This document shows, one piece after another, positions 8,245 through 24,093 of a stretch of 64,000 nucleotides of DNA (the first letter of the stretch is position 1; each line of letters begins with the position of its first letter). A program made the position numbers and the translations under genes. This DNA comes from Oceanibacterium hippocampi (GTDB lineage: Bacteria; Pseudomonadota; Alphaproteobacteria; Sneathiellales; Sneathiellaceae), in assembly GCF_900172325.1 (NCBI RefSeq), contig NZ_FWFR01000001.1:2124335-2188334 (forward strand), written 5' to 3'. The notes under the pieces are model-generated. The model was not told the origin of the DNA and made no database searches. It worked only from the letters and a program-made list of their open reading frames with translations.

Positions 8245-8277
8245 CCCGTCTGTCCGACCTCATTGTTCAACCGATTT

Positions 8278-8298
8278 CGGGCGGCTGTCCGCCGCCCG
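8278..8298 (+). other. 8-bp perfect hairpin abutting the bioY ribosome-binding site
   Basis: CGGGCGGC and GCCGCCCG pair perfectly around a 5-base loop (TGTCC). The stem ends two bases before AGGA (8300-8303), the likely Shine-Dalgarno sequence of bioY. No T-run follows, so it is not a classic terminator. It could control access to the ribosome-binding site or protect the mRNA end. No BioR-type TTATmkATAA site was noticed here. Confidence 0.5.
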
Positions 8299-8310
8299 CA
8301 GGAAACCGCC

Positions 8311-8859: not shown

Positions 8860-8889
8860 ACCGGGTCGCGACCGGCCCGGATCACGCCC

Positions 8890-9564
8890 ATGATCAGTCT
8901 GGATGACGTCACGGTTCGTTTCGGCGACCGCACCGTGCTGCAGTCCGTCAGTCTCGCGATCCCGGAATTCCGGGTCGCCGTTCTCGGGCCGAACGGCTCG
9001 GGCAAGAGCACCTTCGCGAGGCTGCTCAACGGCCTGCTGCTGCCGACCGAGGGGGCGGTGCGCGTCGACGGCCTGGATACCAGGACCGACGGCCGGCGGG
9101 TGCGTCGGCAGGTCGGCTTCGTCTTCCAGAATCCCGACAACCAGATCGTCTTCCCGATCGTCGACGAGGATGTCCGCTTCGGCCTCAAGAATCTCGGTTA
9201 CGGCGCGGCGGAAACCGAACGGACGGTCGCCGAAGTGCTGGAGCGGTTCGACCTCACCGCCTGTCGCCACGAGCGGACCCATACGCTGAGCGGCGGGCAG
9301 AAGCAGTTGCTGGCACTGGCGGGCGTGCTGGCGATGCGGCCCGGATACATCGTCTTCGACGAGCCCACGACGCTGCTCGACCTGCGCAACCGCAACCGTG
9401 TGATCGCGGCGATCGGCGCGCTCGAGACGCCGGCGATCGTCGTCACCCACGACCTCGACTTCGCCGCCGGCTTCGAGCGGGTGATCGTTTTCGACGAGGG
9501 CCAGATTGTCTGCGACGGGCCCGCCGGCATCGCCATCGAACATTATCGCGAGCGGATGCGTTGA
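8890..9564 (+). CDS. bioM: energy-coupling factor ATPase of the biotin transporter
   Basis: A 224-residue ABC ATPase. The Walker A motif is GPNGSGKST (near residue 34), the Q-loop region FQNPDNQIVFP is typical of ECF ATPases, the signature is LSGGQ, Walker B is YIVFDEP, and the switch His is in VVTHDLDFA. It powers biotin uptake with BioN and BioY at the inner membrane. A single ATPase gene suggests a homodimer, as in bioMNY systems. It follows bioY by 30 bases, and its stop overlaps the bioN start. Confidence 0.95.
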   Translation: MISLDDVTVRFGDRTVLQSVSLAIPEFRVAVLGPNGSGKSTFARLLNGLLLPTEGAVRVDGLDTRTDGRRVRRQVGFVFQNPDNQIVFPIVDEDVRFGLKNLGYGAAETERTVAEVLERFDLTACRHERTHTLSGGQKQLLALAGVLAMRPGYIVFDEPTTLLDLRNRNRVIAAIGALETPAIVVTHDLDFAAGFERVIVFDEGQIVCDGPAGIAIEHYRERMR

Positions 9565-10148
9565 GCGGGCAGGGGGCGCGGCGCCGGATCGGCGCCGGCT
9601 GGAAGATCGCCATGCTGGCCGTCTTCGCGACGGCGATCTATTTCGTCGCCTCGTTGCCCGTTCAACTCGCGCTGATCGGCGCCGTCGTCGCCCTGCACCG
9701 GCTGTCCGGGGTTCCGGCCCGACAGATGCTGGCGCCGCTCGTCTCCCTGAAATGGATTCTGCTCGTTATCGGTGTGGCGCTGCTGTTCTACGACGGCCCG
9801 CATGGCGCCGCGCGGGTCGTTCTGCGCCTGATCCTGCTGGTCCTCGCCGCCCAGCTGGTGACCGCGACGACGACCAGTTCCGAACTGGTCGATGCCTTCG
9901 TCGCCTGGCTCGAGCCGCTGCGGCGGTTCGGCGTGCGGCCGGAACGGGTCGGCCTGGCGCTCGCCATGGCACTCCGCTTCGCGCCGATGCTGGTGGAGAT
10001 CGGCCGCGAGGTTGCCGACGCCCAGAAGGCGCGCGGTTGCGGACGCAGCATGGTCGCCACGGCGGTGCCGATGATCGTCCGCACGCTCAAGAGTGCCGAC
10101 GAGATTGCCGATGCCATCCAGGCGCGCGGCTTCGATTCACGCGACTAG
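9561..10148 (+). CDS. bioN: energy-coupling factor transmembrane (T) component of the biotin transporter
   Basis: A 195-residue hydrophobic protein with four to five helices. The two Ala-Arg-Gly coupling motifs of EcfT proteins are present as DAQKARGCG and DAIQARGF in the C-terminal half; they touch the ATPase. I take the TTG at 9561, which overlaps the bioM stop in TTGA and implies translational coupling. An ATG at 9612 is an alternative that would remove part of the N-terminus. It completes the bioYMN importer. Downstream lie proposed operator B and a new transcription unit. Confidence 0.9.
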   Translation: MSGQGARRRIGAGWKIAMLAVFATAIYFVASLPVQLALIGAVVALHRLSGVPARQMLAPLVSLKWILLVIGVALLFYDGPHGAARVVLRLILLVLAAQLVTATTTSSELVDAFVAWLEPLRRFGVRPERVGLALAMALRFAPMLVEIGREVADAQKARGCGRSMVATAVPMIVRTLKSADEIADAIQARGFDSRD

Positions 10149-10186: not shown

Positions 10187-10198
10187 ATTGTTGACAAT
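10187..10198. promoter_or_regulatory. proposed GntR operator, site B (ATTGTTGACAAT)
   Basis: The same 12 bases as site A, 48 bases before the MFS gene start. The plus-strand TTGACA inside it is followed after 16 bases by TACCGT, a possible weak -10, so regulator binding would block the -35 region. The bases just downstream (GCGATTG) differ from sites A and C at two positions. Confidence 0.6.
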
Positions 10199-10246
10199 GC
10201 GATTGTCTCGGGTACCGTGAGACGTCGGTTTGGGAGGATTCCTGGC

Positions 10247-11482
10247 GTGTCGCCATTGATCGTCAACGGAGTGGTCGGCGTCGGCTTCGTGCTGGTGTTC
10301 CAGATGGCGATCATCGCAGCGGCGCAGGCCTTCCCGGTTCTTGCCCCGATCGCCGCCGGCGCGCTCGGCTTCGATCCCGACCATGTCGGCTATTTCACCA
10401 TGATCGTGTTCGTCGCGGCGCTGCTCTCGTCGAACGGGACCGCCGGCCTGCTGCGCCGCTGGGGCTCGATCCGGAGCGCCGCGGTCACGCTCGTCCTGTC
10501 GGGTCTCGGACTGGCGATCCTGGCGGTCGCGGGGTCGGTGACCGGGCTCATTCTCGGCGCCCTGGTGATGGGTATCGCCTACGGCCCGGTCAATCCGGCC
10601 GGCTCGCGCCTGCTGCTGCGCGTGTCGCACGGATTCCGCCGCAACCTCGTCTTCTCGATCAAGCAGACCAGCGTCGCGATCGGCGGCGCGGCGACCGGCG
10701 TGCTGCTGCCGCTGGCGGCAATCGCCTTCGGCTGGCGCGGCGCCATGGTCGCTCTCGCGCTCGTCTGTCTCGGCGTGGCGCTGACCGCCCTGGCGGTGCG
10801 GAGCCGGCTCGGCGACGACGGCGACCCGCGCGCCTCGATCCGCTTCGAGGGGCCGATCGGGCCGGCCCGCCGGCTGCTCGCGGATCGCTCGCTGCGTTCG
10901 CTGGCGATCGCCATCCTCGCCTTCTCCTCGGCACAGTTCGGGCTGATGTCGGTTTACGTGACCTTCCTGTGGAGCCGGGCCGGCCTGTCGCCCGGCGGGG
11001 CCGCAGCGATGCTCTCGCTGATGCTCGGGATGAGCGTGATCGGCCGGCTGGTCTGGGGCTGGCTTGCCGATCTCGGCAAGCCGATCGCGATCCTTGCCGG
11101 TCTCGCGGCCAGCGGCGGCATCGGTTTCCTCGCGCTCCTGACGCTCGGGCCCGGCCAGACGCCGCTGCTCAGTGCGACGATCAGCATCCTGCTCGGCCTC
11201 GGACCGTTGAGCTGGAGCGGCGTCTTCCTGGCGGAGATCGCCCAGGAAGGGGTCTCGCGCGGCGGCGAACAGGTGGTCGTGACGATCACCGCCGGGATGA
11301 TGGTCTTCGGCTACCTGGGCGGCATGATCGGACCGGGCTGTCTCAGCCTGTCGGCGGTCGCCTTCGGCTCCTACGGGCCGGGCATCGCCCTGATCGGGGC
11401 GGCGCTGGCGCTGACCGCGATCCTGCTGTTCAGACGAGGCCAGTCGATGTCGAAACAGCCACCGGAAGGACCCGCCGCATGA
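10247..11482 (+). CDS. major facilitator superfamily transporter
   Basis: The product has 411 residues from the GTG at 10247, which has GGGAGGA eight bases upstream. The frame is open much further upstream, but that part covers bioN and the operator and is not protein-like. About 12 membrane helices are visible, with a basic loop (LLRRWGSIRS) after helix 2 as in many MFS carriers. It resembles the NNP/CynX-like or OPA-like importers of organic anions, but the substrate is unknown. Its stop overlaps the start of the next SDR gene (ATGA). Operator B is in its promoter, so it is probably induced with the carboxylase genes and may import or export a pathway compound. Confidence 0.88.
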   Translation: MSPLIVNGVVGVGFVLVFQMAIIAAAQAFPVLAPIAAGALGFDPDHVGYFTMIVFVAALLSSNGTAGLLRRWGSIRSAAVTLVLSGLGLAILAVAGSVTGLILGALVMGIAYGPVNPAGSRLLLRVSHGFRRNLVFSIKQTSVAIGGAATGVLLPLAAIAFGWRGAMVALALVCLGVALTALAVRSRLGDDGDPRASIRFEGPIGPARRLLADRSLRSLAIAILAFSSAQFGLMSVYVTFLWSRAGLSPGGAAAMLSLMLGMSVIGRLVWGWLADLGKPIAILAGLAASGGIGFLALLTLGPGQTPLLSATISILLGLGPLSWSGVFLAEIAQEGVSRGGEQVVVTITAGMMVFGYLGGMIGPGCLSLSAVAFGSYGPGIALIGAALALTAILLFRRGQSMSKQPPEGPAA

Positions 11483-12234
11483 CCGAACGCCGAACGATGA
11501 TCGTGACAGGGGCCTCGCGCGGAATAGGCGCTGCGGTGGCGCTGGGCGCCGCCCGGCGGGGATGGGCCGTCGGCGTCAACTACCGGACCCAGCCGGACGA
11601 GGCGGAAGCGGTCGTCCGGTCGATCCGGAACGATGGGGGCGAGGCCGTGGCCCTGGCCGCCGATCTCGGCGATGAGGCGGCGATCGTCGCCATGTTCGAG
11701 GCGGCGGACCGGCAACTGCCGCCGCTCGGCTGCCTGGTCAACAACGCGGCCGGTGTCGCGCCGCGGCGGCTGCGGCTGACCGACCTCGACGCGGCCGCGA
11801 TCAACGCGCTGCTGGCGGTCAACGTGACCGGCGCCATGGTCGCCGCGCGCGAGGCGGTGCGACGGATGGCGACGGCCGGCGGCGGTGCCGGCGGCAGCAT
11901 CGTCAACGTGTCATCGCTGGCGGCCCGGCACGGCGCGCCGAATCTCTATATCCATTACGCCGCGTCGAAGGCGGCGGTCGACACCTTCACCCATGGCCTG
12001 GCGCTGGAAGTCGCGGCCGACGGGATCCGGGTGAACGCTGTCAGGCCGGGGCTGATCGACACCGAGATCCACGAGCGGGCAGGAATGGCGAGCCGGGTCG
12101 AGAAGGTCGCGCCGCGGCTGCCGATGAAGCGCGCGGGGCGGCCGGACGAGGTCGCCGACGCGATCCTCTGGCTGGCCTCGGAAGAGGCGTCCTATGTCAC
12201 CGGCGCGATACTCGACGTCGGCGGCGGCGCCTAG
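11479..12234 (+). CDS. short-chain dehydrogenase/reductase (3-oxoacyl reductase-like)
   Basis: A 251-residue classical SDR. The nucleotide-binding motif is TGASRGIG (residues 10-17), NNAAG follows near residue 90, and the catalytic Ser (NVSSLAARHG) and YAASK are in place. The ATG overlaps the MFS stop by four bases, so the two genes are translationally coupled. An NNYRTQPDE-like region after the second strand (GVNYRTQPDEAE) is typical of FabG-like or sugar/alcohol dehydrogenases that use NADP or NAD. It is likely to act on a hydroxy or keto intermediate of the local pathway. Its stop shares the sequence CTAG with the stop of the convergent SDR gene. Confidence 0.92.
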   Translation: MTERRTMIVTGASRGIGAAVALGAARRGWAVGVNYRTQPDEAEAVVRSIRNDGGEAVALAADLGDEAAIVAMFEAADRQLPPLGCLVNNAAGVAPRRLRLTDLDAAAINALLAVNVTGAMVAAREAVRRMATAGGGAGGSIVNVSSLAARHGAPNLYIHYAASKAAVDTFTHGLALEVAADGIRVNAVRPGLIDTEIHERAGMASRVEKVAPRLPMKRAGRPDEVADAILWLASEEASYVTGAILDVGGGA

Positions 12235-13010
12235 GTCCCGCGATGGAAGATGCGCGGACCGAAACCCTGTCCCTGCGACATCAACTCGAGCTCGGTCACA
12301 TCGACATGGGCGGGCATCGAGAGCGCGAACAGGATCGCCTCGGCGATGTCGTCGCCGGTGAGCGGCTCGGCGATCGGCAGCGCCCCGTCGGCCTTTGCCC
12401 GGTCGCCGTCCCAGCGCACCAGCCAGAACTCGGACTCGGTCGCGCCCGGTGCGATATAGGTCGCCCGGACGCCGGTCCCGATGAGATCCGACTTCAGATT
12501 CTTGGTGAAATTCAGCACGAAGCCCTTGGTCGCGCCATAGACGGCGCTGCCCGGCCCGTTCGCCCTTCCTGCGACCGATCCGAGATTGACGATATGGCCC
12601 TTGCGGCGCCGGACCATCGGCCCGAGGACGCGGTGCGTGCAGTAGAGCAGCCCCGAAATGTTGGTGTCTATCATCGCCTGCCAGTCGTCGAGGCTGGCGG
12701 CCTGGGACGGCCCGCGGTCGGTGCCGAGACCGGCGTTGTTGACCAGGATCGAAACCTCGCTGAACGGGGCGGGCAGTGCGTCGAAGGCGGCCTCGACCGC
12801 GGCCCGGTCGCGGATGTCCAGTTCGATCGGCAGCAGCCGTTCGCCCAGTTCCTCGCGAAGCTCCCGGAGGCGGTCGGCGCGGCGGCCGGCCGCGACGACA
12901 TGCGCGCCTTCGCCCACGAGACGACGGGCGGTGGCAAGACCGATGCCCGATGTGGCGCCGGTGACGAAGGCGATTTCTCCGCGAATGGTTCTTCTCCCGG
13001 GGGAAGGCAT
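12231..13010 (-). CDS. SDR similar to YdfG (3-hydroxy acid dehydrogenase / malonic semialdehyde reductase)
   Basis: The 259-residue product follows YdfG closely along its length: VTGATSGIGLATARRLVGEG, AAGRRADRLRELREELG, LVNNAGLG, DTNISGLLYCTHRVLGPMV and VYGATKGFV, with Ser-Tyr-Lys intact (GSVAGRANGPGSAVYGATK). YdfG-type enzymes oxidise 3-hydroxy acids such as L-serine or 3-hydroxypropionate, or reduce the matching semialdehydes. The related SDR IsfD reduces sulfoacetaldehyde. It is transcribed away from the TRAP genes, with operator C in the shared control region only 37 bases before its start. No clear Shine-Dalgarno is seen before the ATG. Confidence 0.85.
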   Translation of the reverse strand: MPSPGRRTIRGEIAFVTGATSGIGLATARRLVGEGAHVVAAGRRADRLRELREELGERLLPIELDIRDRAAVEAAFDALPAPFSEVSILVNNAGLGTDRGPSQAASLDDWQAMIDTNISGLLYCTHRVLGPMVRRRKGHIVNLGSVAGRANGPGSAVYGATKGFVLNFTKNLKSDLIGTGVRATYIAPGATESEFWLVRWDGDRAKADGALPIAEPLTGDDIAEAILFALSMPAHVDVTELELMSQGQGFGPRIFHRGT

Positions 13011-13046
13011 GGAGGGTTAAACAGAGGTTGACACCGAGACATTCAC

Positions 13047-13058
13047 ATTGTCAACATT
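13047..13058. promoter_or_regulatory. proposed GntR operator, site C (ATTGTCAACATT)
   Basis: One mismatch from the ATTGTCAACAAT palindrome, between the divergent YdfG-like and dctP genes. The minus-strand 17-mer TGTTGACAATGTGAATG (13040-13056) is identical to site A. A further inverted pair, GTTGACA at 13027-13033 and TGTCAAC at 13049-13055, may be an additional half-site arrangement. Confidence 0.55.
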
Positions 13059-13153: not shown

Positions 13154-14173
13154 ATGCGTAGCGACCTTACGCGTTTTGTCAGAAATACACTCGGTGCGGT
13201 TGCCGCGGTGGCCGTACTGACGCCCTTCTCGGCGGGTGCCGAGGAGATCGTGGCGCGGCTCAGCTATCACTGGGCGCCGGCGCATCACAGCGCGATCTAT
13301 TGCCAGAAATTCGCCGACCGTGTGAACGAGCGCGGCGCCGGCAAGATCCGCATCGAGACCTATCCCTCGGGACAGCTCTTCGGCATCCGCGAGATCATGG
13401 GGGCGCTGACCTCCGGCGCGGTCGAACTCGGCGGTGTCGTGGGCACGGTGAGCTTCCCGCCGGTCAACAAGAACTACAATGCCGAGGGCCTGCCGGGCGT
13501 CTTCCAGAGCTTCGATCACCTGCGCGGATTCTTCCGCGATGATCCGGCGGGCAAGGCGGTCTGGGACAATATCCTGAAGCGGACCCTGACCACTTTCGTC
13601 GCCTACAACCCGACCGGTCCGTACATGTCCTTCTCGGCGGTTCGTCCGCTCGATTCGGTGGAGGCCTTCCAGGGCCTGAAGCCGCGTTACCTGGCCGGCC
13701 TCGAGCGGCCGCGCTGGGAAGCACTCGGCGCCAGCGCGATCTCGCTGCCGACCCGCGAGGTCTATACCTCTCTGCAGAACGGCATGATCGACACGCTGTC
13801 GACTGTCCCCTCGGCGATCAAGGCCTATAGCTGGTGGGAATATCTGAAGTTCGGCCAGAAGCCGTACCAGTTCTTCGCCGACGCCTTCATCCTCGGCAAT
13901 CAGCGCTGGTGGGACGGTCTGCCGGACGACGTCAAGCAGATCCTGCTCGAGGTCGGCGAGGAGATTTCCAAGGAATCGACCGAGTCGATCATGCGGTTCT
14001 CCGACGAAGTCCTTGAGGAATTCGTGAAGGAGCAAGGCGGTCGCGTCGACGAGCTGTCCGGCGAGGAACTCGCCAAGCTCGAGGCGATCGACCGCGAGAA
14101 GGTCCTGCCGGCGATCAAGGACCTCATCGACGCCGACGTCCTGAAAGCTGTCCAGGACTACGCAGCGAAGTAA
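13154..14173 (+). CDS. dctP: TRAP transporter substrate-binding protein, DctP family
   Basis: A 339-residue periplasmic binding protein with an N-terminal signal peptide (about residues 1-29, ending SAGAEE). GGAGGAAG precedes the ATG. Family features are the ETYPSGQLFG segment near residue 70, and QGLKPRYLAG near residue 172, where the conserved Arg contacts the carboxylate of the ligand. The region REVYTSLQNGMIDTL is also typical. It binds an organic acid and delivers it to the DctQM membrane unit encoded downstream. Operator C lies about 95 bases upstream. The ligand is unknown, but carboxylates and sulfonates are the usual TRAP substrates. Confidence 0.95.
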   Translation: MRSDLTRFVRNTLGAVAAVAVLTPFSAGAEEIVARLSYHWAPAHHSAIYCQKFADRVNERGAGKIRIETYPSGQLFGIREIMGALTSGAVELGGVVGTVSFPPVNKNYNAEGLPGVFQSFDHLRGFFRDDPAGKAVWDNILKRTLTTFVAYNPTGPYMSFSAVRPLDSVEAFQGLKPRYLAGLERPRWEALGASAISLPTREVYTSLQNGMIDTLSTVPSAIKAYSWWEYLKFGQKPYQFFADAFILGNQRWWDGLPDDVKQILLEVGEEISKESTESIMRFSDEVLEEFVKEQGGRVDELSGEELAKLEAIDREKVLPAIKDLIDADVLKAVQDYAAK

Positions 14174-14183
14174 CGAAGATCCG

Positions 14184-14211
14184 GCCCTCGCCTTCGGGCG
14201 AGGGCTTTTTT
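14184..14211 (+). terminator. strong intrinsic terminator between dctP and dctQ
   Basis: GCCCTCGCC and GGCGAGGGC form a perfect 9-bp stem closed by a TTCG tetraloop and followed by six T. It lies 10 bases after the dctP stop and 29 bases before dctQ. It should end most transcripts after dctP and let some through, giving more periplasmic binding protein than membrane subunits. Confidence 0.92.
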
Positions 14212-14239
14212 CGTCGTTCGAGACGGGAGAATCCGCCTC

Positions 14240-14776
14240 ATGCACGCCGCTCTCAACATCCTGTCGGCCGTCAACAACCGGCTGGCGCAGGTCATCGTCA
14301 TCGTTGCCGCGCTGATCGTCCTTGTCATCGTCGCGGTCGTCTTCGGCGGCGTCGCGATCCGGACCGTTACCGGACACGGCTCGGCCATGGTCCAGGAACT
14401 CCCGCCGCTGCTTGTGCCCTGGCTGGTCTTTCCGCTTCTCGGCCTGCTGCTACGTTCCGATTCCCATATCGCGATCGATTTCCTGCCAGCAATCCTGCCT
14501 GACCGGTCGAAACGGATGCTGCGGATTGCGGTGGCGCTGGTATCGCTGATCGCCGGCGCGATCTTCTGCCAGGCCGGGCTCGAGGCGGTGTCGCTGTTCC
14601 AGATGACCGGGCAGGTCACCGAGATGGAGCTCGAATTCCCGATCTGGTGGATCTACCTGTCGTTTCCGGTCGGCTTCGCGATTCTCATGAGCTTTGCGCT
14701 GGAGGTGGCCCTGGCCGCTTTCCTCGGCAAGCCGGGCACCGGCGATGCCGCGCCGGCTCACAATCCAGAACTCTGA
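14240..14776 (+). CDS. dctQ: TRAP transporter small permease, DctQ family
   Basis: A 178-residue membrane protein with four predicted helices. The segment PWLVFPLLGLLLRSDSHIAID around residues 57-77 corresponds to the family's helix-2/helix-3 region, where a conserved Arg-x-x-x-His-Ile occurs. GGGAGA lies upstream of the ATG. It pairs with DctM (12 bases downstream) and uses an ion gradient to take up the DctP-bound solute. Expression probably depends on read-through of the terminator after dctP. Confidence 0.9.
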   Translation: MHAALNILSAVNNRLAQVIVIVAALIVLVIVAVVFGGVAIRTVTGHGSAMVQELPPLLVPWLVFPLLGLLLRSDSHIAIDFLPAILPDRSKRMLRIAVALVSLIAGAIFCQAGLEAVSLFQMTGQVTEMELEFPIWWIYLSFPVGFAILMSFALEVALAAFLGKPGTGDAAPAHNPEL

Positions 14777-14788
14777 GGGGGCGGTTCG

Positions 14789-16057
14789 ATGGTTGGTACG
14801 GCACTCGGACTCTCTCTCGTCCTGCTGTTTCTTTCCGTTCCGGTCTTCCTGGTCTTCGGGCTGGGATCCGGTCTGGTGGCGATCTTCGGGCTGAACCTGC
14901 CCTGGTCGACACTGATCCAGGTTTCGTTCGGCGCCGTCACCAAGCATGTCCTGCTGGCGATCCCGCTGTTCATCTTCGCCGGCCTGATCATGCTGAGGGC
15001 CGGCGTCGCGCGCCGTCTGGTCGCCCTGGCGATGGCCATGGTCGGCCACTGGCCGGGCGGGCTCGGCGTCGCGATGGTCCTGACCATGGGCTTCTTCGCC
15101 GCCTTCTGCGGCTCGATCCTCGCCGCGATCACCGCGGTCGGCTCGATCATGCTTCCCGAGATGAAGAAGAGCGGCTATCCGCCTGCCTTCTCGGTCGTTC
15201 TGGCCGCCTCGGCCGGACTACTCGAAGCGCTGATCCCGCCCTCCAACGCGGCGATCATCTTCTCCTCGCTGACCAACGTCCCGGTCTCCCAGACGTTCTC
15301 GGCAGGCATCCTGCCCGGCCTCGTCCTGATGGTCCTGCTGATCGTCGTCGTGATGATCCGGGGCCGCGCCTTCTCGCGCAACGAACGGGCCGGATGGGGC
15401 GCGCGTCTCGTCGCCGTCCGCCGGGCGGTGCCGAGCCTGCTCACGCCGGTGATCATTCTGGGCGGCATCTATGCCGGGCTCCTGACGCCGTCGGAAAGCG
15501 CCGCCGTCGCCGTGGTATGGGCGGCGTTTGTCGGCTTCTTCATCCATCGCGAACTCACCTTCGAGGGCGTCTGGTCGGCGCTCAAGGCGACCGCCGTGAC
15601 GACCACGGTGATCTTCTCGATCATCGCGATGGCGACCTTCCTGGCCGTCGTCCTGACCTACACCCAGGCGCCGCAGCATCTGACCGCCTACCTGCTGCAA
15701 TACGGGATCGGGCCGATCACCTTCCTGATCATGGTCGGGGTGATCTGTCTGGTCCTCGGGACCTTCATCGAGATCGTGCCGGTGTTTTACCTGACCGTCC
15801 CGATCTTCATGGGCATCGCGCTCACGATGGACGTCTCGATGCTGCATCTCTATGTCGTCTTCACCGCCTTTGCCGGGATCGGCCTGCTGACGCCGCCGGT
15901 CTGCGTCGGGATCTACACCGCCGCCAGCGTGGCGAATATCTCGGCCGACAAGGCGTTCCCGCAGGTGCCGCTGTTCGTCGGTGTCGGCGTGATCTACGGC
16001 GTGCTGATGATCTTCACGCCGTGGCTGGCCGAATGGCTGCCCTCCGCGCTGCACTGA
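14789..16057 (+). CDS. dctM: TRAP transporter large permease, DctM family
   Basis: A 422-residue protein with about 12 helices, the normal DctM size. Conserved stretches include AIPLFIFAGLIM near residue 58, GFFAAFCGSILAAITAVGSIMLP, a LIPPSNAAIIF loop, and the C-terminal GLLTPPVCVGIYTAA. It is the ion-coupled transport subunit of the importer. Its stop codon overlaps the start of the enoyl-CoA hydratase gene by one base (TGATG), linking uptake to the first CoA-ester enzyme. Confidence 0.95.
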   Translation: MVGTALGLSLVLLFLSVPVFLVFGLGSGLVAIFGLNLPWSTLIQVSFGAVTKHVLLAIPLFIFAGLIMLRAGVARRLVALAMAMVGHWPGGLGVAMVLTMGFFAAFCGSILAAITAVGSIMLPEMKKSGYPPAFSVVLAASAGLLEALIPPSNAAIIFSSLTNVPVSQTFSAGILPGLVLMVLLIVVVMIRGRAFSRNERAGWGARLVAVRRAVPSLLTPVIILGGIYAGLLTPSESAAVAVVWAAFVGFFIHRELTFEGVWSALKATAVTTTVIFSIIAMATFLAVVLTYTQAPQHLTAYLLQYGIGPITFLIMVGVICLVLGTFIEIVPVFYLTVPIFMGIALTMDVSMLHLYVVFTAFAGIGLLTPPVCVGIYTAASVANISADKAFPQVPLFVGVGVIYGVLMIFTPWLAEWLPSALH

Positions 16058-16839
16058 TGGCGCGTCTGACAAGCACCGAGGAGGGTGGCGGCATCGTCGT
16101 CGTCACCCTCGATCGCGCCGAGGCGATGAACGCCTTCGACACGCAGATGGCGCGCGAGATGCTGGAGCTGTTCGGCAATGTCCGGCGGCGGCGTGACGAC
16201 CTGCGCTGCGTGGTCCTCGCCGCGGCCGGCGGCAAGGCCTTCTCGGTCGGCGCCGACCTGAAGGAGCGGGACGGCATGAGCGTCGAGGACTGGCGCCGCC
16301 AGCATGCCCTGTTCCGTGACGCCTACGATACGCTCTGGCGCTTTCCCTGGCCGATCGTCGCCGCCGTCGAAGGCTACGCGCTCGGCGGCGGCTGCGAACT
16401 CGCGCTCGCCTGCGATTTCATCATCGCCTCCGAGACGGCCTCCTTCGCGCTGCCGGAAATTCGCCTCGGGATCATGCCGGGTTGCGGCGGCACGCAACTG
16501 CTGCCCCGCGCCATGCCTGAACGCGTGGCCCGCGAACTGATCTTTACCGGCAGACGCTTCGGGGCCGCCGAGGCGCAGGCCTGGGGTATGGTCAACCGCG
16601 TCGTCGCGCCGGGCGGCGCGCTCGCCGAGGCGCTTGAATCGGCGCGGGCCATCGCCGCCAACGCGCCGCTTGCCATCCAGGGGGCGAAGCGGGCGATCGA
16701 CCACGGCCTGCAGACCGATCTTTCCACGGCACTTGCCCTGGAGGTGTCGATCCACCAGCGGCTGTCGGCCAGCGACGACCGCATGGAAGGCATTGCGGCC
16801 TTCAACGGAAAACGCGCGCCACGATGGCGCAATCAATGA
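16057..16839 (+). CDS. enoyl-CoA hydratase/isomerase (crotonase) family protein
   Basis: 260 residues from the ATG at 16057 that overlaps the dctM stop. The crotonase oxyanion-hole region FSVGADLKE and the second one GYALGGGCELALACD are present. Both acidic residues of true hydratases can be matched: the Glu of GGGCE and the Glu of LPEIRLG, equivalent to Glu144 and Glu164 of rat crotonase. Water addition to a 2-enoyl-CoA is therefore the likely reaction, but the acyl group is unknown. It sits between the TRAP importer and the acyl-CoA synthetase, 16 bases before the latter. Confidence 0.9.
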   Translation: MARLTSTEEGGGIVVVTLDRAEAMNAFDTQMAREMLELFGNVRRRRDDLRCVVLAAAGGKAFSVGADLKERDGMSVEDWRRQHALFRDAYDTLWRFPWPIVAAVEGYALGGGCELALACDFIIASETASFALPEIRLGIMPGCGGTQLLPRAMPERVARELIFTGRRFGAAEAQAWGMVNRVVAPGGALAEALESARAIAANAPLAIQGAKRAIDHGLQTDLSTALALEVSIHQRLSASDDRMEGIAAFNGKRAPRWRNQ

Positions 16840-16855
16840 GAACGGGAGTTCACGG

Positions 16856-19030
16856 GTGAACGAGATCGTTTCCGGCGCCGGCGCAGAGGGCGCGGCACTG
16901 ACCGAATGGGACGCCAAGGCACTGCTCGCCGAGTACGGCATCAGGGTGCCGGGCGGGATCCGGCTGAGCGGCCCGGACGAGGTCGACGAGGCGGCCCTCT
17001 CGGCGCTCAAACCGCCCTTCGTCTGCAAGGTTCTGAACCGCGAGGGCGCGCACAAGAGCGATTTCGGCGGCTTGCGGCTCGGCCTGTCGACGGTGGCCGA
17101 GGTCCGCGCCGCGGCCGAGGCGGTGACGCAGGCGGCTCGCAAGGCCGGACTCGCCGTCGACGGCGTGCTGGTCGAGGAGCAGGCCGATCGCGGCACCGAG
17201 CTGGTGATCGGCGGCCTGGTCGATTCCCGTTTCGGTCCCTGCGTGATGGTCGGGCTCGGCGGCATCTTCGTCGAGATCTTCCAGGACGTCGCCTTTCGCG
17301 TCGCGCCGATCACCGAGGCCGATGCCCGGGCCATGCTGTCGGAACTGAAGGCGAGCGCCATCCTCGGCGGCGCCCGGGGCGGCAAGGCGGTCGATATCGA
17401 ACCCGCCGTGGCGGCCCTTCTCGCGATCGGCGGCGCCGACGGGCTGATGCTCTCGCAGGAAGGCCGGATCGCCGAGATCGACATCAATCCGCTTATCCTG
17501 AACGACGCCGGCGCCTTCGCGGCGGATGCCCGCATCATCCTGACAGGGGCCGAGGCCACGCCGCTGCCGGCGCCCGTGCCGCTCGACGAGGCGGCCACTG
17601 TGACGCGTTACGAAGCCCTGTTCCGGCCGCGCTCGATCGCCATTCTGGGCGCGTCGGCGACCGGCACCAGTTTCGGCAACGAGGTGATCCGCCACAGCCG
17701 CGCCTTCGGCTACAAGGGCAAGATCATTCCGATCCACCCCAAGGCCGACGAGGTCGAGGGACTGCCGGCCTGCCGTTCGCTCGCCGACCTGCCCGAGCCG
17801 GTCGATTTCGCCTATGTCGCGATCGGCGCCGAGGCCGCCGTCGCGGCGCTCGAGGCGGCGCCGGGCAAGGCCCGCTTCGTGCAGGTCATGTCGTCGGGCT
17901 TCGGCGAGGCGGCGGACGGCGTCGAGAACGAGCGCCGTCTGAAGCTGGCGGCCGAGAAGGGCGGGATGCGCGTGCTCGGGCCGAACTGCCTCGGCGTGCA
18001 TTCGCCCCGTGGCGGCCTCACGTTCGTCGGCAACGCCTTGCCCGGCGCCGGCCCCGTCGGGATCGTCTCGCAGTCCGGCGGCCTCGCCGTCGACATGATC
18101 CTGCGCGGCCAGAACATGGGCCTGCGCTTCGCCGCCGTGTCGACGCTCGGCAACAGCGTCGACCTGAAGCCGGCCGACCTGCTGGAATTCCATCTCGCCG
18201 ATCCCGAGACGAAGGTGATCGGCCTCTATCTCGAGGATGTCCGTGACGGCCGGCGCTTCGTCCAGCGGCTGGTCGAGGCGCGGGCGCGCAAGCCCGTCGT
18301 TCTCCTGGTCGGTGGACGGACCGACGCCGGGCGGCGCGCCGCCGCCTCGCATACCGGTTCGCTCGCCGCCGACAGCCGGCTCTGGGACGGCGTCGCCCGG
18401 CAGACCGGGGTGATCCTCACCGATACCCTCGACGGCTTCCTGAATGCGCTGCTCGGCTTCCAGATGCTGGTCGACGACGCGCGCGCGCCGGTCCAGCGCG
18501 TCGCCCTGTTCGGCAATGGCGGCGGGACCAGCGTGCTGGCCGCCGACGCGCTCGCCCGTGGCGGCCTGAGCGTGCCGAACGTTTCGCCGGAAACCCGCGC
18601 GCGCCTCGATGCCCTTGGCCTGCCGCCCGGGACCGGCCTCGACAATCCGATCGACACCCCGGCCGGCACCATGCGCCATCGCGATGGCGAGGTCGTCGGC
18701 GAGATCCTCGACATCCTTGTCGAGGGCGGCGAGTTCGACGCCATCGTCGTGCACGTGAACCTCACGGTCTTCGCCACGTCGAGCAACCAGAAGGTCGACG
18801 TCATCGGGAATATCGTCCGCGAGGCGGTGCGAATTCGCACGACCGTGCCGGAGGCCCCGCGACTGGCACTGGTCCTGCGTTCGGATGGCAGCGAGGTGAC
18901 CGAGAATCGCAAGCGGTCGGATCGCCGGACGGCGCTCGACGCCGGTCTGGCGGTCTATGATGAACTGGTCGACGCGGCTGCCGCGCTATCGGCGCTCGCC
19001 GCCTGGGAACGCTTCCGCGCGAGCCGCTGA
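16856..19030 (+). CDS. fused ADP-forming acyl-CoA synthetase (beta-alpha order)
   Basis: A 724-residue fusion from GTG 16856 (GGGAG seven bases upstream). The N-terminal 240 residues are an ATP-grasp domain (PPFVCKVLNREGAHKSDFGG, EIDINPLILND). They are followed by a CoA-binding domain (FRPRSIAILGASATGTSFGN, IPIHPKADEVEG) and a succinyl-CoA-ligase-like domain with the phosphohistidine segment AASHTGSLAA near residue 499. It converts acid + CoA + ATP to acyl-CoA + ADP + phosphate. The more familiar fused enzymes, such as Pat-type proteins, have the CoA-binding part first. It lies downstream of the importer and hydratase, so it probably activates the imported acid. Confidence 0.93.
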   Translation: MNEIVSGAGAEGAALTEWDAKALLAEYGIRVPGGIRLSGPDEVDEAALSALKPPFVCKVLNREGAHKSDFGGLRLGLSTVAEVRAAAEAVTQAARKAGLAVDGVLVEEQADRGTELVIGGLVDSRFGPCVMVGLGGIFVEIFQDVAFRVAPITEADARAMLSELKASAILGGARGGKAVDIEPAVAALLAIGGADGLMLSQEGRIAEIDINPLILNDAGAFAADARIILTGAEATPLPAPVPLDEAATVTRYEALFRPRSIAILGASATGTSFGNEVIRHSRAFGYKGKIIPIHPKADEVEGLPACRSLADLPEPVDFAYVAIGAEAAVAALEAAPGKARFVQVMSSGFGEAADGVENERRLKLAAEKGGMRVLGPNCLGVHSPRGGLTFVGNALPGAGPVGIVSQSGGLAVDMILRGQNMGLRFAAVSTLGNSVDLKPADLLEFHLADPETKVIGLYLEDVRDGRRFVQRLVEARARKPVVLLVGGRTDAGRRAAASHTGSLAADSRLWDGVARQTGVILTDTLDGFLNALLGFQMLVDDARAPVQRVALFGNGGGTSVLAADALARGGLSVPNVSPETRARLDALGLPPGTGLDNPIDTPAGTMRHRDGEVVGEILDILVEGGEFDAIVVHVNLTVFATSSNQKVDVIGNIVREAVRIRTTVPEAPRLALVLRSDGSEVTENRKRSDRRTALDAGLAVYDELVDAAAALSALAAWERFRASR

Positions 19031-19115
19031 AATCTCCTCCCGACGGCATCCGGAAGGCAAACGCCGGACCCCGCGGGACAAGGACGGCAGCGTCTCAGCA
19101 ACGTAAGACATTAGC

Positions 19116-19127
19116 TTTGTCAACAAT
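19116..19127. promoter_or_regulatory. proposed GntR operator, site D (TTTGTCAACAAT)
   Basis: One mismatch from the reverse form of the site A palindrome, 95 bases upstream of the SucC-like gene. TTGTCA at 19117-19122 is followed after 16 bases by TGTATC, so the site overlaps a plausible -35 box. On the minus strand GATTGTTGACAA is followed by AGCTAATGTC, which keeps part of the flank shared by sites A and C. Confidence 0.55.
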
Positions 19128-19221
19128 CTCTATTTGTGTGTATCCTGCCAGTTGAGTTCGCGGATCGCCGACGAGGCGTAACAGCCTCCCGGTCCGCAAG
19201 GCAGGGAAGACCGGAGGGGTC

Positions 19222-20430
19222 ATGAAGCTTGTCGAAGACAGCACCAAGCAATTGCTGAGGAGCAGGGGCCTGCCGGTGCCGGCCGGCGGGGTCGCGACCA
19301 CGGCGGCGGAATGCGCCGAACTGGCGCGCGAGCTCGGCGGCGCCGTGGCGGTCAAGGCGCTGGTCGCCGCCGGGCGCCGGGGCAAGGCCGGGCTGGTGAA
19401 GCTCGCCGCCTCGCCGGACGAGGCGAAAGCTGCCGCCACCGACATTCTCGGCAAGGAGATCGCCGGCCGGCCGGTCGAACGGCTCTACGTCGAGAAGCGT
19501 CTCGATATCGCGGAGGAATTCTACGTCAGCTTCGCCTTTTCCGACCGGGCGCCGAAGATCGTCCTGTCATCCAAGGGCGGGGTCGACATCGAACATGTCT
19601 TCGAGACCGAGCCCGGGTCGGTCCTGCAGGCCGACATCGACGCCGCCCGCGGTTTGCGTCCGTGGGACGCGACCGAACTCTGGTCGCAGGCCGGCCTGAC
19701 CGGCCGCACCCTGCCGACGGTCGCGCGGCTCACGGCCGAGCTGTATGCGGCCTTCGTCGCCCTCGATGCCCAGATGCTCGAAATCAATCCACTGGCCATC
19801 GACCCGGACGGCAAGCCCTGTCTGGTCGGCGCGATGATGGAGATCGACGACGACGCGCTGTTCCGCCATCCGGAGCTCGCCCACGGGCCGTCGCGGCATG
19901 CTTCGGAAAATCCGCGCGAGCGTGCCGTGCTCGAGGCGAACCGGGCCTATCCGGGCGGCGATTCCCGTTACACCGAACTCGAAGGCGATATCGGCCTGCT
20001 GGTGGCCGGCGGCGGCGCGGGACTGCTTCAGCACGACCTGATCGTCGGCATGGGCGGCAGGCCGGCAAATCACTCGGACATGAGCCCGGCGCCCGGCACC
20101 GAGAAGATGGAGGCCGTCCTCGACGCGGTGTTCACCAACCCGCGCGCCCGCAGCCTGCTCATCGGTTACAACTATCTGCAGATGGCGCCCTGCGATCATG
20201 TCGTGAAGGCGCTGGTCAAGTCGGTCGCCCGCAACAAGGTCGACGCGACCCGCTTTCCCATCGTGCTCCGGCTGTTCGGCCCGCGCGAGGCGGAGGCGCG
20301 GGCGCTCGCGGCGACGATACCCGGCATCCGCTACCTGCCGCCCGGATCGAGCCTCGAGGACGGGGCACGGACCATCGTCACCCTGACCGAGCAGGTCCGG
20401 GAGAATTCCAAGCAGGTGGCAGGACAATGA
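19222..20430 (+). CDS. succinate/malate-CoA ligase beta-like subunit (ATP-grasp)
   Basis: 402 residues, as in SucC or MtkA, with GGAGGGG before the ATG. The N-terminus (KQLLRSRGLPVPAGG) and DAQMLEINPLAIDPDGKPCLVG match the ATP-grasp part. The sequence GDIGLLVAGGGAGLLQHDLI matches the second domain. The usual LDxK motif after EINPL reads VGAMMEIDDDALFRHPEL, so the protein is diverged from housekeeping SucC. Its stop overlaps the alpha-subunit start. It is not next to TCA-cycle genes, and with its partner it is more likely a pathway-specific acid-CoA ligase. Confidence 0.88.
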   Translation: MKLVEDSTKQLLRSRGLPVPAGGVATTAAECAELARELGGAVAVKALVAAGRRGKAGLVKLAASPDEAKAAATDILGKEIAGRPVERLYVEKRLDIAEEFYVSFAFSDRAPKIVLSSKGGVDIEHVFETEPGSVLQADIDAARGLRPWDATELWSQAGLTGRTLPTVARLTAELYAAFVALDAQMLEINPLAIDPDGKPCLVGAMMEIDDDALFRHPELAHGPSRHASENPRERAVLEANRAYPGGDSRYTELEGDIGLLVAGGGAGLLQHDLIVGMGGRPANHSDMSPAPGTEKMEAVLDAVFTNPRARSLLIGYNYLQMAPCDHVVKALVKSVARNKVDATRFPIVLRLFGPREAEARALAATIPGIRYLPPGSSLEDGARTIVTLTEQVRENSKQVAGQ

Positions 20431-21341
20431 GCATTCTCATCGATGAGGAAACCCGGGTCGTGGTCCAGGGGATCACCGGGAACCAGGGGCGTTTCGACAC
20501 CAAGCTCTCGCTTGCCTACGGGGTCAATATCGTCGCCGGCGTGACCCCCGGCCGCGGCGGCGAGGCGGTCGAGGGCGTGCCGGTCTTCAACACGGTGCGC
20601 CAGGCGGTCGAAAGCACCGGGGCCAACGCGGCGGTGCTCTACGTGCCGCTGCTCGGCGTCCGAGACGCGGTCATCGAATCGGTCGAGGCGGGCTGCAAGG
20701 TCCTGCTGGCGACCACCGAGAATGTCCCGCGCCACGACGCGGTCGCGGCGGTTGCCGCCGCCCGCAATGCCGGCGCCTGGCTGGTCGGCTTTAACACCAA
20801 CGGCATCATCTCGCCCGGCAAGTGCAAGCTCGGCGGCATCGGCGGCGACGATCCGGACGCGGTCTATCCGGCCGGCCGCATCGGTGTCGTTTCCCGCTCG
20901 GGCGGCATGTCGGCCGAGATCTCATGGGCCCTGGCGCGCGGCGGCTACGGTGTCTCGACCGCCGTCTCCATGGGCGGCGACCGGACGACCGGGCGCTCGA
21001 TGAGCGAGTATCTGGAACTCTTCGAGGCCGACCCGGACACCGACGCCATGGTGATCTATGGCGAGCCCGGGACGAGCAACGAATCGCAGGTCGGCGAGGC
21101 GATCCGCGCCGGCCGCCTGAGCAAGCCGGTGGTGGCGCTGGTTGCCGGTGCGTTCCAGGAGAACTATCCCGCCGGCGTGAGCTTCGGCCATGTCGCGGCG
21201 ATGATCGGTGACAGCGCCGATACCGCCACCGCCAAGCGCCGGATGCTGCGCGACGCCGGCGCCCATGTGGTGGAGTCGCTTGACGAGATCCCGGTCCTGC
21301 TGAAAGGACTCGTTCCGCAGACGGCGGCGCCGCGCCCGTAA
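20427..21341 (+). CDS. succinate/malate-CoA ligase alpha-like subunit
   Basis: 304 residues, starting in the ATGA overlap with the beta subunit. The CoA-binding motif (VVVQGITGNQGRFDTKLSL), VEGVPVFNTVRQAV, and the second domain (GRIGVVSRSGGMSAEISWAL) follow SucD order. The His that is phosphorylated in SucD can be placed in SFGHVAAMI near residue 255, though the usual GHAGA context is changed. It forms the CoA-side subunit of a heteromeric ADP- or GDP-forming ligase. Seven bases separate it from the exporter gene, so all four genes from 19222 to 23248 look like one transcript. Confidence 0.88.
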   Translation: MSILIDEETRVVVQGITGNQGRFDTKLSLAYGVNIVAGVTPGRGGEAVEGVPVFNTVRQAVESTGANAAVLYVPLLGVRDAVIESVEAGCKVLLATTENVPRHDAVAAVAAARNAGAWLVGFNTNGIISPGKCKLGGIGGDDPDAVYPAGRIGVVSRSGGMSAEISWALARGGYGVSTAVSMGGDRTTGRSMSEYLELFEADPDTDAMVIYGEPGTSNESQVGEAIRAGRLSKPVVALVAGAFQENYPAGVSFGHVAAMIGDSADTATAKRRMLRDAGAHVVESLDEIPVLLKGLVPQTAAPRP

Positions 21342-21348
21342 GGCCCTC

Positions 21349-22377
21349 ATGTCCCGTTTCGTCAACGCCGTGGCGGGCAGCGGCCCGCGCCGTATCCGCG
21401 CCGCCCTGGTCGAGATCGCCCCGGGGCTGGCACTCACCTGCATGATCGCGGCGGCCGCGGCCTTCGTTTCGGCGACCTATGGCGGCCCGGTCATGCTGCT
21501 CGCGCTGCTGATGGGCATGGCGCTCAACTTCACCGCCGAGCAGCCGCGGGCGGCGCCCGGCATCCGCTTCGCCTCGAAGCGGGTCCTGCGCTTCGGCGTC
21601 GCCCTGCTCGGGCTTCGCATCACCTTCGGCGACGTCATGGCGCTCGGCCTCGGGACGATCGAGCTGGTCGTCGCCGGCGTGCTCCTGACCATCGCCGCCG
21701 GGATCGCCACCGCGGCCCTGCTGGGCAGCAGCCGGACCTTCGGCGTTCTGGTCGGCGGGGCGACGGCGATCTGCGGCGCCTCGGCCGCACTTGCGATCGC
21801 CTCGGTGCTGCCACAACGGAGCAGCGGCGAGAAGGAGGTGATCTTCACCGTCGTCTCGGTGACGGCGCTATCGACGCTTGCGATGATCATCTATCCGGCG
21901 CTGTTCTCGGTGCTCGGCTTCTCCCATCACGAGATCGGCATCCTGCTCGGCGCCACCATTCACGATGTCGCCCAGGTGGTCGGCGCCGGATACGCCGTGT
22001 CGGACGAGGCCGGCGATACCGCGACGATCGTCAAGCTGTTCCGGGTCGCGCTGCTGCTGCCGACCGTCTTCGTCATCTCCCTGGTCGTCGCCCGTCGCGG
22101 CCGGCGGAACGGCGGCGGCGCCTCGCTGATCCCGTTCTTCGCGCTCGGCTTCGCCGCGCTGGTGGTCGTGCGCTCGAGCGGCGTGTTGCCGGACGCGGTA
22201 TTGCAGCCGCTGAGCGACCTGTCGCGCGGCTGCCTGGTTGCGGCGGTCGCGGCGATCGGTCTTTCGACGTCGATGCGCGATATCGTGAAGGTCGGCTACC
22301 GGCCGGTGGTCATGGCCGGCACGTCGACCCTGGTGCTTCTCGTCTTTTCCATGCTGGCGGTGGCCTATGCCCTCTGA
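21349..22377 (+). CDS. YeiH-family (UPF0324) membrane protein, putative sulfate/sulfite exporter
   Basis: 342 residues with about ten hydrophobic helices. Family signatures are VRFGVALLGLRITFGD-like RFGVALLGLRITFGD near residue 82, GATAICGASAALAIASVL near 136, and GATIHDVAQVVGAGYAVSD near 202. Some members of this family are encoded with sulfonate-degradation genes and are thought to export sulfite or sulfate; others have no known role. It is encoded in the same run as the SucCD-like ligase, which is unusual. Ten of its last codons overlap the start of the hydrolase gene. Confidence 0.9.
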   Translation: MSRFVNAVAGSGPRRIRAALVEIAPGLALTCMIAAAAAFVSATYGGPVMLLALLMGMALNFTAEQPRAAPGIRFASKRVLRFGVALLGLRITFGDVMALGLGTIELVVAGVLLTIAAGIATAALLGSSRTFGVLVGGATAICGASAALAIASVLPQRSSGEKEVIFTVVSVTALSTLAMIIYPALFSVLGFSHHEIGILLGATIHDVAQVVGAGYAVSDEAGDTATIVKLFRVALLLPTVFVISLVVARRGRRNGGGASLIPFFALGFAALVVVRSSGVLPDAVLQPLSDLSRGCLVAAVAAIGLSTSMRDIVKVGYRPVVMAGTSTLVLLVFSMLAVAYAL

Positions 22378-23248
22378 CGAAACGCCGGACTGGTTCCGAC
22401 AGGCCCTGGCCGATAAGCCGGAGGAAATCGACCTCGCGGTCGATGGCGGCACGGTCCATGTCCTTCTGTGGGGGACGGGGCCGGGACGGCCGCTGATCCT
22501 GGTCCATGGCAACGGCGCGCACGCGCGCTGGTGGAGCTTCATCGCTCCCTCGCTGGCGAGCGGGCGGCGGGTGGCGGCGCTCGACCTCGGCGGAATGGGC
22601 GACAGCGGCGGGCGGGCGAACTATTCGCCCGACAGCTTCGCCGCCGAGCTCGAAACGCTCGCCCGCCGGCTGTGCGCCGACAGCGGGCATGACGCGGTCG
22701 ATATCGCCGCCCACAGTTTCGGCGGCCTGGTCTCGACCTGGTTCACCTATCACCACCCGGCGCTGGTAAACCGCCTGGTGCTTCTCGACGTCCCGTTCCC
22801 GGTGGAACGCGGCTTCCGTCCCAATTGGCGGCGCCAGGACGGCCGCCGGTCGATCTTCCCGAGCCGGGAAGCGGCGCTCGACCGGTTCCGGCTGCTGCCC
22901 GCCCAGCCCTGCGAGAACGGCTACCTGGTCGATTACATCGCCGGCCATTCGATACGCGAGACGGCCGAAGGCTGGACCTGGAAATTCACCGCCAATCCCT
23001 GGGATTACGAGCCCTTCCAGGGGGACTTCTGGCCCCGTCTCGGCGAGGCGGCGGGCGGCCTCGCGCGGCCCCCGGTCCTGGTCCGGGGGGCGGCAAGCGC
23101 GCTTTGCACGGCGGAGATGGAGGATCGCTGGCGGGTGCTATTCGGGGACAGTGTCGAGATCGACGTCATCGAGGGCGCCCATCACCATCTCATGCTCGAC
23201 CAGCCCTTGCGGCTGGCGGCCGTGCTGGCGCACCGGACCGGCCCCTGA
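22367..23248 (+). CDS. alpha/beta hydrolase
   Basis: A 293-residue protein starting inside the last codons of the YeiH gene (11-base overlap, ATG 22367). The oxyanion HGNGAHARWW is near residues 47-56, the nucleophile elbow is AHSFGG with Ser117, and the C-terminal catalytic His lies in EGAHHHLMLDQP. No signal peptide is seen, so it acts in the cytoplasm. It may hydrolyse an ester, lactone or thioester of the pathway. The last 111 bases overlap, on the opposite strand, the DUF6306 gene. Confidence 0.9.
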   Translation: MPSDETPDWFRQALADKPEEIDLAVDGGTVHVLLWGTGPGRPLILVHGNGAHARWWSFIAPSLASGRRVAALDLGGMGDSGGRANYSPDSFAAELETLARRLCADSGHDAVDIAAHSFGGLVSTWFTYHHPALVNRLVLLDVPFPVERGFRPNWRRQDGRRSIFPSREAALDRFRLLPAQPCENGYLVDYIAGHSIRETAEGWTWKFTANPWDYEPFQGDFWPRLGEAAGGLARPPVLVRGAASALCTAEMEDRWRVLFGDSVEIDVIEGAHHHLMLDQPLRLAAVLAHRTGP

Positions 23249-23797
23249 CCCGGCGACCCCGCGGACCATTTCCGAGGCGAGCTTCCGGCCGAGAACGATA
23301 GTCCGTTCATGGCTTTCCAGCATCATCCTGAGATCCCGGTGGAGCACATCGTCGGCGATCCGCGCGAGGTTTTTCCGGAGTGTCTCGACAACCGCCGACT
23401 GTCCGCGTTCGAGCAGGTCCATCCGGCGCCTTGCCGTCGTTGCCGCGACCAGCCTGTCGTGGAAATCGCCCGTCCGCCCGGTCGGGCGGCCGCCCAGGCG
23501 GATGATGTGATCGGACAACATGGCGCAGAAGCGGGCCTGGTCGTCGGCGATCGCGCGCAGGAACCGCCGCTCCCCGGGGCGGCCCGCGGCCTCGACGATG
23601 CGGACGATCCCGCGCGCACCGGCGCGCGCGCCCTCCAGCAGGCGGTTGAGCAGCGCGACGGTTTCGACCGGACCCAGGTAGCCGAGATAGGCGGGGTCGA
23701 GTTCGGGCAGGAAACAGGGCGGGGACGCGAAGGGGCGCGGTTCCTCTGAACTGTCCGGTTCGGTCTGCCGGCCTGCGGTTTCGTTTCTCTCGGTCAT
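23138..23797 (-). CDS. DUF6306 (ferritin-like helical) protein
   Basis: 219 residues from the ATG at 23797. A longer frame upstream has a composition unlike the family. The core (about residues 30-170) matches what I recall of DUF6306: NRLLEGARAGARGIVRIVEA, DDQARFCAMLSDHIIRLGG, TGDFHDRLVAA, RGQSAVVETL and a final helix with MLESHERTIVLGRK. It is predicted all-helical. The function of the domain is unknown. It follows a small membrane-anchored protein by 11 bases and appears to be in the same operon. The 3' 111 bases are antisense to the alpha/beta hydrolase gene and encode a less conserved tail. Confidence 0.8.
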   Translation of the reverse strand: MTERNETAGRQTEPDSSEEPRPFASPPCFLPELDPAYLGYLGPVETVALLNRLLEGARAGARGIVRIVEAAGRPGERRFLRAIADDQARFCAMLSDHIIRLGGRPTGRTGDFHDRLVAATTARRRMDLLERGQSAVVETLRKNLARIADDVLHRDLRMMLESHERTIVLGRKLASEMVRGVAGSGAGPVRQHGRQPQGLVEHEMVMGALDDVDLDTVPE

Positions 23798-23808
23798 GCG
23801 CCGCGTTG

Positions 23809-24093
23809 CTACAGCCCGAGCCAGCCGAGCAGCGTCGCGAGCGCGAAGGCGAGGAGGAGGGCGGCGGCGAGTTGCCGGCGATGCTGCGTCGGACCGGCCG
23901 ATGGGCGCCAGAGATCGCGCATCAGGCCGCGGCGCTGTCGCTGTACCGAGGCGCGGAGCGGGAGCGGCTGCCGGATTTGCAGGGCGCGGTCTTCCGGACG
24001 ATAGCCCTGCAGGGCGAGCCGGGCCAGCCGCGCCACCGCTTCGTTGTCGCCATCGCTGCGCATGCAGCATCTGAAATGCAGGTCGGAGTGCAT
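23809..24093 (-). CDS. small protein with a C-terminal membrane anchor
   Basis: A 94-residue product from ATG 24093, preceded by GGAGAACGAG. The first 70 residues are polar and Arg-rich (CCMRSDGDNEAVARLARLA, GYRPEDRALQ). The last 20 (LAAALLLAFALATLLGWLGL) form one hydrophobic helix that ends the protein, a tail-anchor layout. I do not recognise a family. It is first in a two-gene reverse operon with the DUF6306 protein and is divergent from a LysR regulator, which may control it. Confidence 0.72.
   Translation of the reverse strand: MHSDLHFRCCMRSDGDNEAVARLARLALQGYRPEDRALQIRQPLPLRASVQRQRRGLMRDLWRPSAGPTQHRRQLAAALLLAFALATLLGWLGL

Follow-up and report, generated by a model that had tools for sequence, protein, structure and literature searches.

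A GntR-type regulon of Oceanibacterium hippocampi that may serve sulfur-independent acid uptake, CoA activation and carboxylation, with an added anion exporter

The DNA studied here is a window of 64,000 nucleotides from Oceanibacterium hippocampi (assembly GCF_900172325.1, contig NZ_FWFR01000001.1, positions 2,124,335-2,188,334 of the forward strand), and plain positions in the text are those of this window. A block at about 2.6-23.2 kb, which encodes a TRAP importer, two CoA ligases, a biotin carboxylase (BC), two carboxyltransferases (CT1 and CT2) and a YeiH-type transporter, is one GntR-type regulon, because it holds four copies of a shared operator where chance would give 0.03 and all of them lie inside the block. 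The interpretation that we favour, with about an even chance of being correct, is that the block takes up an acid, activates it with CoA and carries out a carboxylation independently of sulfur, and that an exporter of an anion, probably sulfite, has been added to this core. The core exists elsewhere without the exporter and would thus need no sulfur chemistry; a sulfur-containing substrate is possible for this strain, not as a property of the conserved core.

The pattern TGTTGACAAWS was found at four places in the 64 kb (5616, 10189, 13046 and 19115) and none of 100 shuffles reached this number. Each of the four sites heads a transcription unit of the block:

5614-5626, plus strand: operator ATTGTTGACAATG between CT1 and CT2, with similar sites in the nearest relative and in a Rhodoferax locus
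10187-10199, plus strand: operator ATTGTTGACAATG before the MFS transporter and SDR1 genes, TGTTGACAAWS pattern
13046-13058, minus strand: operator between SDR2 and dctP, TGTTGACAAWS pattern
19115-19127, minus strand: operator before the SucC-like gene, TGTTGACAAWS pattern

The presumed GntR operator has the sequence form TGTTGACAATG, and the GntR/FCD regulator encoded in the block would be the protein that binds it. The operator is common to three lineages, as operator-like sites stand also between CT1 and CT2 of the nearest relative (L055:10660) and before the BC gene of the Rhodoferax locus (7358). The whole genome holds eight matches to the pattern, four of them in the block; the remaining four, which fall within or close to unrelated genes such as those for PGK and an integrase, show no evident link and look like chance. 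A regulon reaching beyond the block was rejected on account of these unrelated positions.

The core of the block is kept in the nearest relative (G068, of the same class and a different family) and partly in a Rhodoferax metagenome-assembled genome (MAG). Within about 14 kb, the relative encodes CT1 (69% identical), CT2 (63%), the GntR regulator (47%), the NDP-forming ligase (52-57%), SDR1 (58%), the hydrolase (47%), the SucD-like and SucC-like ligase subunits (69% and 57%) and DctPQM (39-58%), and the small biotin carrier is also present. No YeiH, crotonase or SDR2 gene was found in its block, and its single PF03601 gene lies on another contig with 27% identity to the YeiH studied here. The earlier note, which proposed that the regulon degrades an organosulfur acid, named the occurrence of the block in relatives lacking the YeiH gene as evidence that would refute it; this relative, with a core that lacks YeiH and only that distant homologue elsewhere, is such a case, and the outcome goes against the proposal. 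The NDP-forming ligase of the relative is in two adjacent pieces (L055:13347-15460), perhaps from a frameshift or as two genes. The Rhodoferax locus keeps the GntR regulator, BC, SucC, SucD, CT1 and the operator, has two TctC-type binding proteins instead of the TRAP importer, and carries an AMP-binding ligase. The genes of the block are as follows:

2633-3997, minus strand: BC of the AccC type, 454 aa, without a carrier domain (PF02786, PF00289, PF02785)
4008-5564, minus strand: CT1, by its translation and PDB matches to beta subunits of propionyl-CoA carboxylase (PCC) and acetyl-CoA carboxylase; 69% to CT1 of the relative
5683-7218, plus strand: CT2 (PF01039, 331 bits); 63% to CT2 of the relative
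7263-7484, plus strand: small biotin carboxyl carrier protein, 73 aa, with ESMKM; a homologous small gene is at the same place in the relative
7516-8244, plus strand: GntR/FCD regulator (PF00392 and PF07729)
8263-10148, plus strand: biotin importer, a group of three genes
8263-8859, plus strand: BioY (PF02632)
8890-9564, plus strand: ABC ATPase of the biotin importer (PF00005)
9561-10148, plus strand: EcfT-like protein of the biotin importer, by position and translation only
10247-11482, plus strand: MFS transporter (PF07690), its start inferred from the sequence
11479-12234, plus strand: SDR1, PRK06123-like; 58% to a gene of the relative's block
12231-13010, minus strand: SDR2, YdfG-like but scoring under the YdfG cut-off; no counterpart found in the relative's block
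13154-14173, plus strand: DctP, a divergent TRAP solute-binding protein (PF03480, 137 bits); 43% to DctP of the relative
14240-14776, plus strand: DctQ, TRAP importer subunit
14789-16057, plus strand: DctM; 58% to the relative
16057-16839, plus strand: crotonase/enoyl-CoA hydratase with both catalytic Glu motifs, GGCEL and LPEIRLG
16856-19030, plus strand: NDP-forming acyl-CoA ligase of the acetate--CoA ligase family (PF13549, PF13607, PF13380)
19222-20430, plus strand: SucC-like ligase beta subunit, loop GYNYLQMAPCD replacing the usual GGI(V/M)xCD
20427-21341, plus strand: SucD-like ligase alpha subunit, SRSGGMSAE as against SRSGTLTYE in ordinary homologues
21349-22377, plus strand: PF03601 (YeiH) transporter (230 bits, cut-off 24.5)
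22367-23248, plus strand: alpha/beta hydrolase; 47% to a gene of the relative's block

BC and CT1 are on the minus strand, and CT2, the carrier, the GntR regulator and the biotin importer diverge from them on the plus strand. The ATG of the crotonase overlaps the DctM stop, and the SucC-like, SucD-like, YeiH and hydrolase genes overlap or almost touch, YeiH starting 7 bp past SucD. The earlier note, which dealt with 13154-23248, had stated that a TRAP importer, acid-CoA ligases, a YdfG-like SDR and a YeiH-family putative exporter are encoded together, and domain matches bear out the presence of all of them, although the SDR lies on the minus strand just outside that range. It had overlooked the crotonase and, beyond the range, the biotin carrier. 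A DUF6306 gene (23138-24070, minus strand) overlaps the end of the hydrolase gene on the opposite strand.

The SucCD-like ligase is the most distinctive component of the core. Its architecture of two subunits with an ATP-grasp fold and the region of the phospho-His motif are shared with succinyl-CoA synthetase, malate-CoA ligase and citryl-CoA synthetase, but the block ligase stays below all equivalog cut-offs (SucC-like, 251 against 370 bits for the succinate--CoA ligase beta subunit; SucD-like, 268 against 336 bits for the alpha subunit; malate--CoA ligase, 207 against 604 bits) and both loops are altered. The SucC-like subunit is 49% identical to that of the Rhodoferax MAG and about 35% to succinyl-CoA synthetase and malate-CoA ligase. 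SRSGGMSAE is present in the alpha subunit of all three members (this genome, G068 and the Rhodoferax MAG), and the beta-subunit loop was read as GYN(Y/F)LQMAPCD in this genome and G068. The three ligases form one clade (support 0.974), to which G077 is the nearest outgroup. No further close carrier was found in overlapping samples of 143, 385, 398 and 401 genomes (cut-off E 1e-80) and one genome-contig scan, and a plasmid collection gave matches of only about 30-38%. We take the SRSGGMS of the SucD-like subunit to resemble that of ATP-citrate lyase, and the SucC-like subunit gives weak matches to citrate-lyase domains. The enzyme belongs to a rare subfamily that carries this citrate-lyase-like motif and was met in three genomes. 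Judging by the motif, the substrate class would be hydroxy acids or di- and tricarboxylic acids, and the ligase would act on a polar di- or tricarboxylic acid. A sulfur-free hydroxy or dicarboxylic acid, which the earlier note had given as its alternative, may be the substrate.

BC, a carrier with MKM and the CT genes are all in the block, as expected of a biotin-dependent acyl-CoA carboxylase. Twelve carboxyltransferase matches were counted across the genome, and one of them, at C16:1796082 (661 bits), is of the canonical PCC type. The position of Asp422 of S. coelicolor PccB was located through mutant structures aligned from the PDB and taken to be residue 422 on the printed numbering; there CT1 has Ser, CT2 has Leu and the canonical PCC beta subunit of the genome has Asp. 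Because Asp422 is replaced in both CT1 and CT2, the carboxylase of the block is probably not a PCC, and it would not be needed for propionyl-CoA since a canonical PCC beta gene is present elsewhere in the genome. Propionyl-CoA carboxylation, the role suggested in the earlier note, is disfavoured on both counts. Three other carboxyltransferases of the genome are similar to CT1 or CT2 (L162, 47%; L163, 54%; L164, 43%), and several carboxylases of this type are encoded in it. The BC of the block is 56.6% identical to that of a Sulfitobacter plasmid cassette which also carries YeiH.

The imported ligand was considered from the side of DctP. In alignment with the isethionate-binding protein IseP, Arg177 is kept while Tyr, Thr and Thr stand at the positions of Arg156, Trp200 and Asn217, so that DctP retains one of the three residues by which IseP holds the anion and lacks the full set of four expected of IseP-type sulfonate binding; identity to sulfonate-associated DctPs is only 19-25%. 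The DctP of the relative has the same pattern, and for this reason the two proteins probably share a type of ligand, one which the IseP rules do not predict. Further, SDR2 does not reach the YdfG equivalog cut-off (253 against 411 bits).

In the pathway that we favour, the TRAP importer would take in a small organic anion, and the SucCD-like ligase, perhaps together with the NDP-forming ligase, would make the CoA thioester of the imported acid. BC, the carrier, CT1 and CT2 would then run in the direction of carboxylation on an acyl-CoA of the pathway, with biotin supplied by the dedicated importer. The remaining steps may be performed by SDR, hydrolase and, in this strain, the crotonase, and the YeiH-type exporter, probably for sulfite, would be an addition to the ligase operon of this strain.

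The exporter is where the evidence pulls in the other direction. YeiH is embedded in the SucCD operon through an 11-bp overlap with the hydrolase gene, its group is often found beside desulfonation genes, and it recurs beside carboxylase genes in two other lineages: its neighbours are BC, the carrier, CT2, the NDP-ligase and BioY on the Sulfitobacter plasmid, and BC and DctM in G015, a genome from the same family. These contexts suggest that the block handles sulfur chemistry in this strain. Moreover, the core is known from few genomes (three), and G068 may dispose of sulfite by a route outside the searches made. In G015 the genes for DctM, BC (55% to the block BC) and YeiH all point the same way and lie at the end of a contig (L176:11735-14842). 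The present YeiH, the only PF03601 gene of the genome, fails the TIGR00698 subfamily cut-off (142 against 232.6 bits). Twelve plasmid homologues, 46-55% identical to it, were inspected, and in half of them a desulfonation gene can be recognised beyond doubt at a distance of up to 6 kb: a gene with the annotation D-cysteine desulfhydrase, the family to which the cysteate sulfo-lyase CuyA belongs, in L108, L111, L114 and L119, Xsc-Pta in L116, and a pair of CaiB and 3-sulfinopropanoyl-CoA desulfinase in L118. The other six comprise two with TauE (one of them also with sulfolactaldehyde reductase), two with possible desulfonating oxygenases and two with none, and markers for Xsc or CuyA/HpsN stand beside YeiH in four of 20 alphaproteobacterial relatives, which makes the association common but not general. 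In the tree the window YeiH falls inside the desulfonation-associated group, and the YeiH proteins of G068 and the Rhodoferax MAG fall outside. From neighbourhood and tree, the protein probably exports an anion, namely sulfite; in Salmonella, YeiH is the main sulfite-resistance factor (PMC12880088). Two of the plasmids (L109, NT-25, and L110, Paracoccus ferrooxidans) carry succinate-dehydrogenase-like genes, two fumarase genes, YeiH, NIPSNAP and TauE, possibly a sulfosuccinate-type pathway; the sulfosuccinate and sulfopropionate literature gave nothing relevant.

These contexts, the Salmonella result and the recurrence of YeiH with BC and an NDP-ligase or TRAP importer (L065, L176) speak for an alternative in which the imported acid is a sulfonate or sulfinate and sulfite is split off from its CoA ester in an unrecognised step, such as beta-elimination by the crotonase, after which YeiH would export the sulfite and the carboxylase would act on the desulfonated acyl-CoA. 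The same genome also encodes a 3-sulfinopropanoyl-CoA desulfinase (C6:484677-485858, L158; NF042439, 681 bits, above the curated cut-off of 600; 74% to the Mesorhizobium desulfinase) and an Xsc (C12:298428-300110, L160), the latter accompanied by genes for a class-III aminotransferase and an acetate kinase in what is likely a taurine-type sulfonate pathway. On the other hand, no C-S lyase or desulfinase was detected by the markers used in the block, the window or the 20 kb on either side of it; the suggestion of the earlier note that one be sought left of base 1 found no support in that 20 kb. The DctP residues and the core kept in G068 without YeiH also speak against this route, which we regard as possible but less probable than the sulfur-independent one. 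The earlier proposal is partly supported: the setting of YeiH and the sulfur genes elsewhere in the genome agree with it; the place of the desulfinase outside the regulon, the core of G068 without YeiH, the DctP residues and the separate PCC do not. The narrower version, the scheme of the earlier note, in which the SucCD-like ligase makes 3-sulfinopropionyl-CoA and the C6 desulfinase splits it to propionyl-CoA and sulfite for export by YeiH, is very unlikely. In its favour, the scanned and annotated neighbours of the desulfinase include neither a CoA ligase nor a transferase, and a CaiB-family CoA-transferase across the left window edge (1-537, plus strand, continuing into L057:19338-20000) is 46% identical to the Mesorhizobium CaiB beside desulfinase and YeiH; but the desulfinase sits on a separate contig and the 32 kb taken around it contain no operator, G068 and Rhodoferax share the ligase subfamily while their best desulfinase homologues are only 36-38% and 33% identical, and propionyl-CoA would go to the separate canonical PCC. 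The C6 desulfinase adjoins a thiamine-diphosphate-dependent acetolactate-synthase-like gene, a DUF2177 gene and an MFS gene. Equally improbable is that the PF03601 protein transports something other than sulfite, either bicarbonate to feed the carboxylase or a product that is a carboxylate: PF03601 genes are near BC genes in three lineages (the block, L065 and L176) without a recognised desulfonating enzyme and the TIGR00698 cut-off is missed, but YeiH branches among exporters beside desulfonation genes and we know of no PF03601 bicarbonate transporter. A new organosulfonate catabolism, with citrate-lyase-like SucCD activation, desulfonation coupled to the crotonase and two-CT carboxylase, expulsion of sulfite by YeiH and no known desulfonating enzyme, is unlikely, though a little less so than these two.

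Comparable cassettes place the block in a wider setting. The plasmid of Sulfitobacter sp. LC.270.F.C4 (NZ_CP136685, L065) shares the small carrier, BC (57%), BioY, CT2 (49%), the NDP-forming ligase (48%), YeiH and a tripartite importer, but has TctABC in place of TRAP, a CoA ester lyase and MaoC in place of the crotonase, and no SucCD-like pair. The cassettes of Cupriavidus (L063/L064) and Variovorax (L062) share CT1, CT2, BC and the 73-aa carrier, those of Cupriavidus also the GntR regulator, whereas CaiB replaces the SucCD and NDP ligases, TctC replaces TRAP and YeiH is absent. The 3-sulfinopropionate cassette of Mesorhizobium loti NZP2037 (L118) has a YeiH of the same group with GntR and CaiB nearby, but its desulfinase adjoins YeiH and it has no TRAP, SucCD or carboxylase.

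Cassettes that combine a two-CT acyl-CoA carboxylase with a dedicated importer are met repeatedly on Burkholderiales plasmids; no paper on such a cassette was found, and the literature on those with TRAP/TctC and CaiB gave nothing useful. In the present block such a cassette comes with a well-defined regulon and an unusual ligase, and its operator is common to three lineages, which makes its substrate testable. If sulfite is released by the pathway, it would add an unrecognised route of desulfonation.

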